Below, piece by piece: positions 2,121 through 16,836 of a stretch of 64,000 nt of DNA. The notes under the pieces were generated by a model, which made no database searches, was not told where the DNA came from, and saw only the letters and a program-made list of their open reading frames with translations. Origin of the DNA: Bacteroidota bacterium (GTDB taxonomy: Bacteria; Bacteroidota; Bacteroidia; NS11-12g; UBA955); NCBI GenBank assembly GCA_024103355.1, contig JAGFIU010000014.1, forward strand, positions 1-64,000, written 5' to 3'. Positions within the stretch are counted from its first letter, which is position 1; every line of letters starts with the position of its first letter. Made by a program: the position numbers and the translations under genes.

Positions 2121-3377
2121 TCATTGTGCAAAAAGATTATGCATTGTTGGTTTAAATTCAGTAACAACACTATTTTCTAAAGAGTTTTTAATCATACTTT
2201 CTTCCTTGATATCATTGCTCTCATTTTCCTTTTGTGAAACAAGCGCCAATGATAAATTATTATATTTACTGAATTTTAAGGGCTTTGAATTGTATGATAT
2301 ATTGATAACCCATTCTATGTTGCTGTCTTGACTTTTTGTAATAAAACTCTCTGCTTCTAACAACTCAGCTAATAGAAGTGCGCCTTCTTTTTTCAAATCA
2401 TCCTTTCTCAACCCACCATGGATACACAAAGATTTAAGTAGAGCGTTTGATTTTGAAAAACCATTTTCATAAATCTTGTTGGGAAGTCTAAATTCCCTGT
2501 CTATCAGAAAGTTAACCCTGATTTTTGATTCAATGTCTAAAGATTCAAAATGAATCTGTTTTTTGAAGTATGTTACCAAATTTTGGGTATTTCCCTCTAT
2601 AAGTTTTATGGCAGTTTCCAAAAAAATCTCGCGTGTTATTTCTTCAAAACCCGTTATTGGTGTGCGCCTTCCACTGTATGTTTTTTCTTTGTGTACTTTT
2701 GTATTATTATACGCTTCCCACAATAACAAAGGAAAGTTTAGTAAGTTCCTTTCATCATCTTTTAAGATATATTCAGCAAACATACAACCGTGCTTTTTCA
2801 AACCCGACTTGCTTTCAGTTAGTTGTTTAAATACCAAAAAAGAAGACCAGATTTTGTCAGCAATGTCTGTTTGTTCTTTTAATTGATTTTCTATTTCTCT
2901 GATTGTTATGATGTCTTTTTCTTTGAGATGAAAACTGTTTTCTTCTTTGGAAACACTAAACAAGTTCAGTGTAGAGGCCATATTGCTTTTTTTGCCGAGT
3001 GTAAGAAATTCAACAAAAGAGGCGTGTTTGTTTTGGTTGATAAATGTATTAAGATTTCCCAAAATAGTTTCAAAGGACTGACTTTCTCTACTTACCGGGA
3101 GCGTTTCTTCTTGATTTGTGTTAAAAGTATATTTTTGGAGACTTTCTCTCAAACCCGGATTATGTAAGGCAATCAGCGACAGAATTTTCTTATCTCTTCT
3201 AAGCTCAACCCATTTAGCCTTTTCTTTTTCACTCAAAGGCAAATTTACAAACAAGCGTTTAAGATGTTCAAAGCGTTTGCTGAGTTCTGTATTTGTAGCC
3301 GATTCTTGTGCCAAGCCTGAATTTATTTTTTCAGGTAGCGAAAATAATACGGAAAACAATGGTAAGTTTAGAGTCAA
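2121..3377 (-). CDS. Hypothetical protein, no family recognised
   Basis: A 418-residue protein that I do not recognise. It is rich in Lys, Glu, Ser and Leu, with predicted alpha-helical character and no obvious signal peptide, transmembrane helix or catalytic motif. A central segment with KHGCMFAEYILKDDERNL and a later one with CIHGGLRKDDLKKEGALLLA look like ordered helical regions; the last 40 residues look disordered. The first available start is the TTG at 3377; no ATG occurs near the N-terminus, so the start is uncertain. Codon choice resembles the neighbours. It stands alone between DUF2795 and hflX with no operon link. Confidence 0.6.
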   Translation of the reverse strand: MTLNLPLFSVLFSLPEKINSGLAQESATNTELSKRFEHLKRLFVNLPLSEKEKAKWVELRRDKKILSLIALHNPGLRESLQKYTFNTNQEETLPVSRESQSFETILGNLNTFINQNKHASFVEFLTLGKKSNMASTLNLFSVSKEENSFHLKEKDIITIREIENQLKEQTDIADKIWSSFLVFKQLTESKSGLKKHGCMFAEYILKDDERNLLNFPLLLWEAYNNTKVHKEKTYSGRRTPITGFEEITREIFLETAIKLIEGNTQNLVTYFKKQIHFESLDIESKIRVNFLIDREFRLPNKIYENGFSKSNALLKSLCIHGGLRKDDLKKEGALLLAELLEAESFITKSQDSNIEWVINISYNSKPLKFSKYNNLSLALVSQKENESNDIKEESMIKNSLENSVVTEFKPTMHNLFAQ

Positions 3378-9749: not shown

Positions 9750-12221
9750 CTAAAATGGTACGATTACTTTCATTACAAAATTTCTTCCCATATTGTATAT
9801 TCCATATTGTTCGTTGGGTGATTGTTCGTAATATTCAAAGTATTTCAAACGGTTAAGGTGTGATTGATAGGCATTGTCAAACAGATTATTTATTTGAAAT
9901 ACAACTTGAATGTTTTTATCTTCCGAATAATTGATTTCAGCAGTTAAGCCAAGATTAAAAAGAGTGTAAGATGGCGTTACAGTTTCAGTTCCGTTTAAAC
10001 CTAAGTACCTGTTTTGGGTAGCAGCGTATTCCACCTCAAATTTTGGAGTTATGGAGATGAACCATTTGGATTTTGGTTCAAATTTTTGAGATAAGCTACT
10101 ATTGAGGGTCATTGGTGGAATGAGCGGTAAATATTCTCCTTGCGTTCCTTTCTCTTTTAAATCTGATTTTCGATTAAAGCCATAAACCATGCTCATGCTG
10201 TTATCCCATCGAAAACCTTTCCATTTTCTCGGATGAACAGCCAACCAAAATTCGCCACCATATAATTGGGCTTTTGACTGTTGGTATTGATATGTTCGGT
10301 TGCCTTGAGCATCTAAAATCGGATTTCCTTGAGGGTCAGCTAAAGCAGTCATAAAAATAAAATTCTGAATGTTGTTGTTGAATACACTCACTTCTCCTGA
10401 AACATCATTAAATTTCAGGTTAATGCCCAAATCTTCCTGCAATGAAAATTCCGGTTTAAAAGTTCTGTTTCCTAAATAAATAATATGCGCCCCGGGGTCT
10501 AATCCATTACTTCCAATTTCTGTAATATTAGGAGAACGGTAAGCCCGACCAATATTGGCTTTTAGGCTGATATTTTTATTTGCTTGAAAAGTCGCTCCAA
10601 TACTTCCGCTTATTCCGTGATAGGTTTTCTTAAAAGCCTCAAATTGTAAATCGGCATCGGGATTATTTGCATCGGTTTGTTTATTAAAACCTGATAAAAC
10701 ATCTTCGGCTACATAAAAATCGTTCCATTGAACATGCCTTATATCGTAGCGAAAACCACCGCTGATGCTCCATTTGTCTTTTTTCCATTTTCCATATAAA
10801 TAAATTCCACCATCGTATAAATTGTAGTCAGGAATAGGGAAATCGGTAGCGTCTTTGTTTTTATTGTTTTGAAACATTCCGTTGATACCAATAGATGTTT
10901 CTATATTAGCAAATCGGGGCGCATTGTATCTAATTCCATAATTCAAAGTATTCAATCTCATATACATTCCTGCCTGTTTAGGAGCAGTGGGGTGTGTAAA
11001 CTCACGTCTAATATTTTGTTGACCTCCTAATAGAATATCAATATCTCCTTCCCCTACTTCATAAAAGCTGTGGAGATAAGCTCTGTAATGTTGAATATGT
11101 TGAGCTAAATCAGGGATTTTATAAGAATGTAATCCTTTATCCGAAACGATTGGACGGTTTTTTATATCATCCTCATCTTCCTCATAAATTTGTTGGGTAA
11201 ATTTTCTGGTTAGAGAATCCCGGCTACCATCAGGTATTCCCTGATGATTATCGTAAAGAGTTAAGTTTAAGTGAGTATATCCTTTTGAAGATTTAAAGCC
11301 TGCCAAAGCCGCAATATTTTTTTCATTAAAGTTGGTTAGATAAACTCTTCCGTCAATCGGATTGCGATAGTTTTTTGCTATTCGGTAAGAACCATTCAGG
11401 GCAAATAAAAATCGTTCATTAGAATAATCCAAACGCAATCCGTTACCTATAAGATTGTTGTTGCTTTGGTATTCAGTTAAATATTTTCCGTGTAATTTAC
11501 CATCATTGTTTTTAGGGATATAGGGGAATAGACTAATAACCCCTGCAATAGCATCTGAGCCATACAAAAGGCTTGCAGGACCTTTGATGATTTCAGCTCG
11601 CTCCATATTATAATTGTCAATTTCAATACCATGTTCATCACCATATTGTTGTCCTTCTTGTCGGATACCATCGTATAATGTCAGAACTCGGTTGTAGCCC
11701 AAACCATGAATGAATGGCTTGGAAATATTAGGACCCGTTTTAACTGCTTTTAATCCCGGAACATTTTTTACCAAAACATCAATAATGTTGCTTTCGGCAG
11801 TTCTATCAATTTGTTTGGCAGAAACCGGACTTATAGCAATTGGATTTTCTTTAAGTAAAGTTGCTCTTGTGGTTCCTGTAATTACTATTTCTTCCAGATT
11901 AGTGGAATTTGGCTTTAAATAAAAAATGTAGCTATTTTGATTAGGAAGAATTTTCAAAGTGTCTGTATCATATCCCATACTTTGAAAAATGAGTTTACTA
12001 CTACCATTACTTTGAACAAGTATAATCTTAAAATTACCTTTCCCGTCTGTTAAAGTGCCATTCTCTGTATTTTCTTGAAGGACAGCACAGAACTCAATGG
12101 GCTGTTTGGTGTCATAATCCTTTACAAAACCTTTAATAGTGCGTTGCTGTGCATGAGAGAATATTGCAATTGTCATTAATAAAGCTGTACTGACTAATCT
12201 TTTCATCTTCAAATATTTCAT
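9750..12221 (-). CDS. TonB-dependent outer-membrane receptor, probably for a metal chelate
   Basis: Outer-membrane beta-barrel that imports a ligand using TonB energy. The 823-residue protein has a signal peptide ending in FSHAQ, a carboxypeptidase-regulatory-like beta domain (about 25-110, beginning RTIKGFVKDYDTKQPIEF), a plug domain (about 115-225, with ISPVSAKQIDRT, VPGLKAVKTGP and IIKGPASLLYGSDAIAGVI), and a barrel ending in NFVMKVIVPF with a terminal aromatic residue. The Asp-rich TDFPIPDYNLYDGG is in the barrel. It is divergent from a DtxR/MntR-type regulator and its promoter contains a 16-bp palindrome, so iron or manganese is the likely cargo. The start at 12221 lies three bases after a -7 box; an ATG five codons further in is also possible. 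Confidence 0.92.
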   Translation of the reverse strand: MKYLKMKRLVSTALLMTIAIFSHAQQRTIKGFVKDYDTKQPIEFCAVLQENTENGTLTDGKGNFKIILVQSNGSSKLIFQSMGYDTDTLKILPNQNSYIFYLKPNSTNLEEIVITGTTRATLLKENPIAISPVSAKQIDRTAESNIIDVLVKNVPGLKAVKTGPNISKPFIHGLGYNRVLTLYDGIRQEGQQYGDEHGIEIDNYNMERAEIIKGPASLLYGSDAIAGVISLFPYIPKNNDGKLHGKYLTEYQSNNNLIGNGLRLDYSNERFLFALNGSYRIAKNYRNPIDGRVYLTNFNEKNIAALAGFKSSKGYTHLNLTLYDNHQGIPDGSRDSLTRKFTQQIYEEDEDDIKNRPIVSDKGLHSYKIPDLAQHIQHYRAYLHSFYEVGEGDIDILLGGQQNIRREFTHPTAPKQAGMYMRLNTLNYGIRYNAPRFANIETSIGINGMFQNNKNKDATDFPIPDYNLYDGGIYLYGKWKKDKWSISGGFRYDIRHVQWNDFYVAEDVLSGFNKQTDANNPDADLQFEAFKKTYHGISGSIGATFQANKNISLKANIGRAYRSPNITEIGSNGLDPGAHIIYLGNRTFKPEFSLQEDLGINLKFNDVSGEVSVFNNNIQNFIFMTALADPQGNPILDAQGNRTYQYQQSKAQLYGGEFWLAVHPRKWKGFRWDNSMSMVYGFNRKSDLKEKGTQGEYLPLIPPMTLNSSLSQKFEPKSKWFISITPKFEVEYAATQNRYLGLNGTETVTPSYTLFNLGLTAEINYSEDKNIQVVFQINNLFDNAYQSHLNRLKYFEYYEQSPNEQYGIYNMGRNFVMKVIVPF

Positions 12222-12224
12222 TTG

Positions 12225-12256
12225 CAAAACTAACGAAGTTAGATTAATCTAACAAA
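12225..12256 (-). promoter_or_regulatory. Promoter of the TonB-dependent receptor
   Basis: On the complement, TTTG at 12256-12253 is followed after 20 bases by TAGTTTTG at 12232-12225, close to the Bacteroidota consensus. The spacer contains the perfect palindrome 12238-12253. The ATG at 12221 is three bases after the -7 box, so the transcript would have almost no leader. Confidence 0.7.
12238..12253. promoter_or_regulatory. Probable operator for the DtxR/MntR-type regulator
   Basis: GTTAGATTAATCTAAC is a perfect 16-base palindrome. It occupies most of the spacer between the -33 and -7 elements of the receptor promoter and lies 24 bases before the -7 box of the divergent regulator gene. DtxR and MntR family proteins bind such TTAG..CTAA palindromes. 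Binding by metal-loaded repressor would occlude the receptor promoter directly and could also affect the regulator's own promoter. The protein-site pairing is inferred from position and symmetry. Confidence 0.7.
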
Positions 12257-12276
12257 TTTTATTTGACAAATCATTT

Positions 12277-12284
12277 TATATTTG
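12277..12284 (+). promoter_or_regulatory. -7 box of the DtxR/MntR-type gene
   Basis: TATATTTG lies four bases before the ATG at 12289, predicting a leaderless transcript. The -33 element is not clear. Confidence 0.6.
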
Positions 12285-12288
12285 CAAT

Positions 12289-12945
12289 ATGATTTCGCAA
12301 GCAGAAGAAAATTATTTAAAAGCCTTGTTTCATTTAACCAATGAAATGCAGGGAAAAATAGAAGCTGGAACTAATGAATTAGCAGAAATTTTAGATGTTA
12401 AGCCAGCTACAGCGAATAATATGCTTAAAAAACTCAAGGAAAAAGAATGGGTATCTTATGAAAAATATGGGAAAATAACATTGACCGATAAAGGAAAAAG
12501 TCTTGCTGTAGAAACGGTGAGGAAACACCGTCTTTGGGAAACATTTTTGTATGAAAAGCTAAACTTTACCTGGGACGAAGTTCACGAAGTTGCAGAACAA
12601 TTAGAACATATCAAGTCGGATAAATTGGTACAACAGTTAGAACGTTTTTTAGATTTTCCTGAAACAGATCCACATGGCGACCCAATACCCAATGCCAAAG
12701 GCGAAATTAAATTTGTAAATCGAAAAACTTTAGCAGAAGTTGAAGTGGGAAAAACATGTAAATTAATTTCAGTAAAAGACAATAGTTCTTCATTTCTACA
12801 GTATGTTGTCAAACTTGGTTTAGGTTTAAGTAGTAAAATAAAAATTATCAGCCGTCAGGATTTTGATGGGTCAATGGAAATCGAAGTTAACAAAGTGCGT
12901 TCTTCTATCAGTAAAAAAGTTGCTCAAAATTTGTTTGTAGTTTGA
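12289..12945 (+). CDS. Metal-dependent transcriptional regulator, DtxR/MntR family
   Basis: Cytoplasmic repressor activated by Mn(II) or Fe(II). The 218-residue product has the three family domains: a winged helix (1-60, with NELAEILDVKPATANNMLKK), a metal-binding and dimerisation domain (about 65-135, with RKHRLWETFL, VHEVAEQLEHI and the signature DPHGDPIP), and a C-terminal FeoA/SH3-like domain (about 145-218). His and Glu residues in HRLWE and EHI match the usual metal ligands. It is divergent from the TonB-dependent receptor, with a palindrome between them. Metal preference cannot be decided from sequence; MntR-like proteins of this length in Bacteroidota may respond to either metal. Confidence 0.92.
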   Translation: MISQAEENYLKALFHLTNEMQGKIEAGTNELAEILDVKPATANNMLKKLKEKEWVSYEKYGKITLTDKGKSLAVETVRKHRLWETFLYEKLNFTWDEVHEVAEQLEHIKSDKLVQQLERFLDFPETDPHGDPIPNAKGEIKFVNRKTLAEVEVGKTCKLISVKDNSSSFLQYVVKLGLGLSSKIKIISRQDFDGSMEIEVNKVRSSISKKVAQNLFVV

Positions 12946-16140: not shown

Positions 16141-16197
16141 TCAGATTATTAAATGCTTTATAAGTTACTGAATCCAATTAATAAAGCTGTCAAATAC

Positions 16198-16205
16198 TAT
16201 CTTTG
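16198..16205 (+). promoter_or_regulatory. -7 box of the Crp/Fnr gene, four bases before the start
   Basis: TATCTTTG, then CCCT, then the ATG at 16210. It predicts a leaderless transcript and decides the start, because the longer frame from 16153 would begin upstream of the promoter. Confidence 0.6.
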
Positions 16206-16209
16206 CCCT

Positions 16210-16836
16210 ATGCAAAATCTTGAGAATACGGCTGAATTCAAGACCTCTCCTCAGTTGGTTGAAAAACTATATCAATACGGAATTATCAAAACATACAAAG
16301 CAGGGGAAGTGGTTTTGAATGAAAATTCACATATTAATTCTATTCCTATTGTAACAAAGGGTATTTTGAAGGTATTTCGTGAGGAAGAAGACGGAAGAGA
16401 GATTTTGCTTTATTATATCAAAGCAGGAGAAAGTTGCATTATGTCCTTTTTGGGAGGGTTGCACAATGAGACAAGTAAAGTACGTGCCGAGGTAGAAGAA
16501 GATGCGGAAATTTTGTTTGTGCCCATAGAGAAAATATCTTTCTTTATCAGAGAATATCCTCAATGGTTAGACTATATTTTCAGGCTATACCACAAGCGTT
16601 TTGAAGAACTACTCGAAGTTGTCAATGACATTGCTTTTAAGAAGGTGGATGAGAGGTTGTTGGATTTACTGAAAAAAACTTCAGATGTTACCGGTTCAAA
16701 AACAATCACAATTACACATGAACAATTAGCAAACAAATTAGGTACGGCAAGGGTTGTAGTTTCTAGGCTTTTGAAACAACTCGAAGATTCCGGAAAGGTT
16801 AAATTGGGAAGAAATAAAATAGAATTACTCGCTTAG
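16210..16836 (+). CDS. Crp/Fnr family transcriptional regulator
   Basis: One-component regulator of 208 residues. It has an N-terminal cyclic-nucleotide-binding fold (about 15-125, with GEVVLNENSHINSIPIVTKG and FREEEDGREILLYYIKAGES), a long dimerisation helix, and a C-terminal winged helix with THEQLANKLGTARVVVSRLL (about 170-190). It has no Fnr-type Cys cluster at the N-terminus. Residues around GESCIMSF do not match the cAMP-binding motif well, so the effector is unknown. It is divergent from the DUF486 gene, which is a candidate target. Confidence 0.88.
   Translation: MQNLENTAEFKTSPQLVEKLYQYGIIKTYKAGEVVLNENSHINSIPIVTKGILKVFREEEDGREILLYYIKAGESCIMSFLGGLHNETSKVRAEVEEDAEILFVPIEKISFFIREYPQWLDYIFRLYHKRFEELLEVVNDIAFKKVDERLLDLLKKTSDVTGSKTITITHEQLANKLGTARVVVSRLLKQLEDSGKVKLGRNKIELLA

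Follow-up and report, generated by a model that had tools for sequence, protein, structure and literature searches.

A conserved 16-bp palindrome as the probable operator of a DtxR/MntR-type regulator in a TonB-dependent receptor promoter of Bacteroidota

The divergent regulator and receptor genes

The window analysed here, a 64-kb stretch of DNA from a Bacteroidota bacterium, contains a divergent pair of genes for a DtxR/MntR-type regulator and a TonB-dependent receptor. Both assignments had been made in a sequence-only reading of this DNA, and both are confirmed by domain matches. Between the two genes lies an exact 16-bp palindrome, GTTAGATTAATCTAAC. The features of the locus are:

Positions 12289 to 12945, plus strand: DtxR/MntR-family regulator of 218 amino acids, assigned from domain matches and structure-sequence matches
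Positions 9750 to 12206, minus strand: TonB-dependent receptor with CarboxypepD_reg-like, Plug, and beta-barrel domains
Positions 12238 to 12253, no strand: putative operator GTTAGATTAATCTAAC, an exact palindrome, conserved at orthologous loci and with the top profile score
Positions 12225 to 12232, minus strand: predicted receptor -7 box TAGTTTTG, from sequence, 5 bases from the operator, with TAnnTTTG similarly spaced in most related loci
Positions 12253 to 12256, minus strand: predicted receptor -33 element TTTG, from sequence, with CAAA at the same position, by a count made by eye, in 14 of the 24 order-level loci
Positions 12277 to 12284, plus strand: predicted regulator -7 box TATATTTG, from sequence, conserved spacing, and the rule derived for Flavobacterium psychrophilum (PMC9723704)

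The regulator comprises a winged helix, a metal-binding and dimerisation domain, and a C-terminal FeoA (SH3-like) domain, scoring 51.7 bits for PF01325 and 108.3 bits for PF02742 against curated cut-offs of 26 and 27. It clearly matches solved DtxR-family structures by sequence and is the sole PF02742 protein of the genome. The DtxR ligands His79, His98, Glu105, and His106 correspond to His80, His99, Glu106, and His107 here, and are kept in 109 to 110 of 110 orthologues. The position of DtxR Cys102 and Bacillus MntR Glu99 is occupied by Glu, the manganese-type residue, in 109 of the 110. The metal site of Bacillus-type MntR (Asp8, Glu11, Glu99) is nevertheless not reproduced as a whole: Lys stands in place of Glu11 in all 110 orthologues, and Asn in place of Asp8 in the window regulator and in 73 of the 110. 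The regulator also falls below the cut-off of the NCBIfam MntR models. The receptor scores above cut-off for PF07715 (80.2 bits) and PF00593 (125.6 bits); its closest NCBIfam models are heme/hemoglobin receptors, all matched far below their cut-offs, and its closest solved structure is PhuR.

No second perfect palindrome of at least 16 bp occurs in the 64 kb of the window, and GTTAGATTAATCTAAC has a single perfect copy across the 2.3-Mb genome. Palindromes of such length arise by chance at a mean of 2.0 per window (range 0-5) in first-order Markov sequences of the same dinucleotide make-up, so that the symmetry by itself is not significant. Within the palindrome lies a 14-bp core of DtxR type, TTAGA-N4-TCTAA (12239-12252). 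An overlapping inverted repeat at the left edge of the operator, CTAAC-GAA-GTTAG, was considered and rejected, its outer CTAAC being mostly CTAAT, CTACA, or similar in relatives.

Promoters and start codons

The promoter boxes on both sides are predictions. On the receptor side TTTG and TAGTTTTG are separated by 20 bases, and the palindrome falls inside this -33/-7 spacer, as had been claimed from the sequence, save for its final base, which is common to TTTG. On the regulator side the gap between the palindrome and TATATTTG is 23 bases (the 24 given previously is the offset), and 4 bases separate TATATTTG from the ATG; in the sequence before TATATTTG no TTTG is present at the normal -33 spacing. 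The -7 box of F. psychrophilum promoters occupies -12 to -5, and just 5.5% of the mRNAs there are leaderless (PMC9723704). Because this rule, applied to TATATTTG, places the start of transcription on the A of the ATG at 12289, the regulator mRNA is predicted to be leaderless; a box-ATG gap of 4-5 bases is found in 10 of the 21 order-level loci having a box, the window included. For the receptor the start by the same rule is 12220; as this position belongs to the first in-frame ATG (12221-12219), the second in-frame ATG (12206-12204), with a leader of about 14 nt, is the likelier start codon. The suggestion that both genes are leaderless is thus supported, by prediction from the box-ATG spacing, for the regulator, and is doubtful for the receptor.

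Conservation of the site at orthologous loci

Regulator orthologues were taken from 80 genomes, and the 250 bases upstream of each gene were searched for the pattern TTAG-N6-CTAA. The pattern is found upstream of the regulator in 76 of the 80, against an expectation of 0.009 per region from the 26 background sites counted across 800 kb of flanks; one of the four exceptions (L044) carries a one-base variant. While the four-base arms of these sites are set by the search pattern itself, the outer flanks and the bases adjacent to the arms are strongly preferred as well. The middle of the operator varies (ATTAAT, ATATAT, CTATGA, ATTAGT). The site is conserved over Flavobacteriaceae, Saprospiraceae, and Chitinophagaceae-type genomes, and it is present in 20 of 29 order-level relatives, whose regulators are 39-71% identical. 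The window site scores 20.0 bits on a profile made solely from the orthologues, and the runner-up among 63,979 positions in the 64 kb scores 8.0.

The distance from the site to the promoter boxes is also maintained. Toward the receptor, the gap to the start of a TAnnTTTG box is 4-5 bases in 16 of 24 order-level loci (a count that includes the window and its three closest relatives) and for 31 boxes among 33 Aquimarina-type loci, and 8-9 bases for 29 boxes among 40 other loci; in shuffled controls any TAnnTTTG box is found in about 1-3 loci per group. For the box on the regulator side the distance is 21-25 bases in most order-level loci and 24-28 bases in the majority of flavobacterial loci. 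These fixed distances place the site between the receptor -33 and -7 elements and just upstream of the regulator -33.

Two observations concern particular relatives. The same-genus genome (G064, locus L150) has a one-base variant of the site and a regulator just 42% identical to that of the window, as against 60-84% in other genera, and on this ground the regulator-receptor pair may have been transferred between lineages. In Aquimarina-type loci, such as L019 and L037 (4967-4982), there is overlap between the operator and the probable start codon of the regulator (GTTAGctATGACTAAC), so that binding there would cover the start of the gene too.

Sites away from the regulator gene

The motif is also found at a distance from its presumed regulator. 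In three genomes of the same family (G065-G067) the identical 16-mer GTTAGATTAATCTAAC lies 31-33 bases before a gene for a ZIP-family transporter (Pfam checked for two) and 4 bases from a TAGATTTG box:

Loci L173, L174, and L175 (genomes G065-G067), positions 1501 to 1516: exact 16-mer GTTAGATTAATCTAAC at the ZIP gene

The DtxR gene of G066 and of G067 lies on a different contig and has no site upstream. In the Flammeovirgaceae genome G120, where the regulator adjoins Nramp, a second site lies apart from the regulator gene: the variant TTTAGATTTGTCTAAA immediately precedes a TonB-dependent receptor ATG (L212, about 1532-1547). These trans sites link the motif to metal import independently of where the regulator gene stands.

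Whole-genome counts of the 16-mer, of TTAG-N6-CTAA, and of GTTAGA-N4-TCTAAC show no excess over reversed controls, and matches to the wider pattern in other genomes lie mostly within genes. In the genome of the window 29 distinct TTAG-N6-CTAA sites were examined, of which 25 are in coding frames; the other four are the window site, two scoring near zero, and one at the start of nqrA. This last, TTAGGCATGTCTAA at the nqrA start codon (G000:C1:108376; L107 4376-4389; 11.8-12.7 bits by profile), was set aside as a chance match, being absent in the same-genus genome, and a GTTAGCCATGTCTAAC match on contig C32 was rejected as lying within a coding frame. No operator site was found at this genome's own Nramp-Usp and ZIP genes, and the pattern and profile searches together yielded no convincing site in it beyond that of the window. 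Either the regulon here consists of this one promoter, or weaker sites were missed by the search. The proposal that the palindrome would provide a searchable Bacteroidota operator holds between genomes, at the orthologues and the G065-G067 ZIP genes, but within its own genome the search yields no other convincing target.

Resemblance to known metal-responsive operators

The operator of IdeR/DtxR is a 19-bp sequence, TTAGGTTAGSCTAACCTAA, with a single-dimer core, TTAGGNNNNCCTAA, and IdeR tolerates TCTAA arms in gel shifts (PMC8464063). The window site has similar TTAG...CTAA arms and the same 14-bp spacing as TTAGGNNNNCCTAA, and is associated with a three-domain regulator of the same family. 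Its arms are TCTAA where those of IdeR/DtxR are CCTAA, four of the five bases in each arm agreeing and the first being T. It differs further in offering one dimer site only, in lying within a Bacteroidota-type promoter, and in its association with a regulator that has the manganese-type Glu in place of DtxR Cys102.

Closer parallels for the regulator and for the layout are found elsewhere. DR2539 of Deinococcus radiodurans, which responds to Mn and Fe (PMC3327659), shares with the present regulator a Lys at the position of MntR Glu11, a conserved His (His98 in DR2539), and a C-terminal SH3-like domain. It represses a manganese importer and needs an inverted repeat in the promoter to do so, but its target is mntH rather than a TonB receptor, and both its phylum and its operator are different. 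PgMntR of Porphyromonas gingivalis (PMC4805248) is likewise a Bacteroidota DtxR-family protein with FeoA and with a manganese importer promoter as its target; it differs in its second FeoA domain, in its use of Cys108 as a metal ligand, and in its target, FeoB2. Binding by PgMntR was shown on a 385-bp promoter fragment, within which the operator was left unmapped (PMC4805248). The arrangement of the window is paralleled by the MntR-controlled TBDR-pTFP locus of Stenotrophomonas maltophilia, in which an MntR-box is situated in the -35/-10 spacer of a gene for a TonB receptor (PMC13217887, 2026); that receptor is near mntR and has been proposed to function in manganese uptake. The Stenotrophomonas box is 25 bp and belongs to the Gammaproteobacteria, whereas the window site is 16 bp and belongs to the Bacteroidota. 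The CQNC motif of the S. maltophilia receptor was not seen on reading the window receptor sequence, and, unlike in S. maltophilia, no thioredoxin-fold gene stands beside the window receptor.

A proposed metal-dependent switch

Phylogenetic footprinting, the fixed spacing to the promoter boxes, the trans sites at ZIP genes, and the likeness to a 14-bp single-dimer site together argue that the neighbouring DtxR/MntR-type repressor uses the palindrome as its operator, which would act as a metal-dependent switch of the receptor promoter, a reading to which we give a probability of roughly 0.85. The earlier prediction of an operator for this regulator inside the receptor promoter is strongly supported on the same grounds (76 of 80 loci, box spacing, trans ZIP sites, IdeR-like core). 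With ample Mn(II), and perhaps Fe(II), a single dimer loaded with metal would bind the two TCTAA half-sites and, in covering the -33/-7 spacer of the receptor, deny RNA polymerase access. Under metal shortage the dimer would leave, allowing synthesis of the TonB-dependent receptor, whose probable role is the passage of manganese or of a metal complex through the outer membrane. Since the site ends beside the regulator promoter, binding may also reduce expression of the regulator itself; such autoregulation, mentioned previously as a possibility, is weakly suggested by where the site ends, near -36 relative to the regulator promoter as predicted, and by the conservation of this spacing. Observed in the sequences are the site itself, its conservation, its constant position with respect to the predicted promoter boxes, the family of the regulator, and the manganese-importer surroundings of the orthologues; binding, repression, the identity of the metal, the substrate of the receptor, and autoregulation are all elements that we infer in this model. 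In outline it would constitute a new operator, well supported at the level of sequence, of a known kind of regulator, an earlier in silico description of the motif being possible.

That the palindrome is a functionless product of chance in AT-rich DNA is scarcely credible: chance alone would give each window about two perfect palindromes of 16 bp and the motif counts do not rise above reversed controls, but both arms and their position are conserved over strongly diverged regulators. This conservation also bears on whether the site is bound by some other regulator, such as Fur or a CRP-type protein, and stands beside the DtxR gene by accident. One Fur is encoded, and a gene for a CRP-type regulator lies 4 kb off (16153-16836); the site nevertheless tracks the DtxR gene phylum-wide and has DtxR-like arms and spacing, which makes this explanation very improbable. 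Only a little less improbable is that the site chiefly controls the regulator gene, control of the receptor being incidental. The site does stay with the regulator where the divergent gene is no receptor, yet its position, at fixed spacing, is within the promoter on the receptor side, and in G066 and G067 the site is gone from the regulator gene and present at the transporter.

Manganese, iron, and a possible wider circuit

Of the 80 loci, 50 have a TonB receptor as the divergent neighbour of the regulator, and 70 encode a TroA/ZnuA-type binding protein, Nramp, or ZIP at a distance of no more than 5 kb. Genes for a binding protein and then an ABC ATPase come after that of the receptor in many Flavobacteriaceae, a set that, from its gene order, resembles a manganese-type ABC importer operon provided with an outer-membrane receptor of its own. 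TroA/ZnuA-type binding proteins can also serve zinc, and the inference of manganese therefore leans on the regulator family. For the receptor, an MnoT-like function, transport of Mn across the outer membrane, is suggested by the genomic context of orthologues only. In the genome of the window, which encodes one DtxR-family protein and one Fur, no TroA/ZnuA-type protein was found. The operator overlaps the predicted promoter of the receptor, and importer genes stand at the orthologous loci; these neighbourhoods and the manganese-type Glu favour manganese as the probable signal, although a dual Mn/Fe response is possible since Lys11, the conserved His, and FeoA match DR2539.

The same operator and repressor might instead respond mainly to iron, or to Mn and Fe alike, with the receptor importing heme, a siderophore, or another iron compound. 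We consider this less likely. In its favour, besides the resemblance to the Mn/Fe-responsive DR2539 (PMC3327659) in the same three respects, the receptor is nearest to heme/hemoglobin models and to PhuR, and feoB lies within 5 kb in 20 of the 80 loci. Those receptor matches are all far below cut-offs, however, and feoB has its own promoter elsewhere where examined. Against iron also stand the importers near the regulator in most loci and the Glu in place of the Cys102 of iron-specific DtxR, and the Fur of this genome could handle iron.

Manganese-type control could extend well beyond this locus. We tentatively propose a Bacteroidota-wide circuit of MntR type, in which a single-dimer DtxR site in a TAnnTTTG promoter would control dedicated manganese-importing TonB receptors, the receptor promoter being the only target in the present genome. 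Bacteroidota have TonB receptors in great number, the majority without an assigned substrate, while outer-membrane manganese receptors are, to our knowledge, known from a few Proteobacteria only. An operator defined by its sequence allows metal-controlled Bacteroidota receptors to be chosen by sequence, provides a precise 16-bp probe, and has a testable consequence in the existence of a class of TonB receptors of this phylum that is subject to manganese-type control.

In some genomes a different gene is divergent from the regulator. At two loci, L169 (266-1474, minus strand) and L160 (276-1478, minus strand), it encodes a di-haem peroxidase (DHOR, PF06537), and the operator is kept. In 14 of the 80 loci, including L019 (4128-4922, minus strand) and L061 (4177-4920, minus strand), it encodes a small outer-membrane-type protein (PF13557), which stands where the receptor would be, with a metal-binding protein gene downstream of it, and is possibly another metal porin. 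In L020 a thioredoxin-fold gene (2171-2638, minus strand) lies between the genes for the TonB receptor and the metal-binding protein, an arrangement that recalls TBDR-pTFP of Stenotrophomonas.
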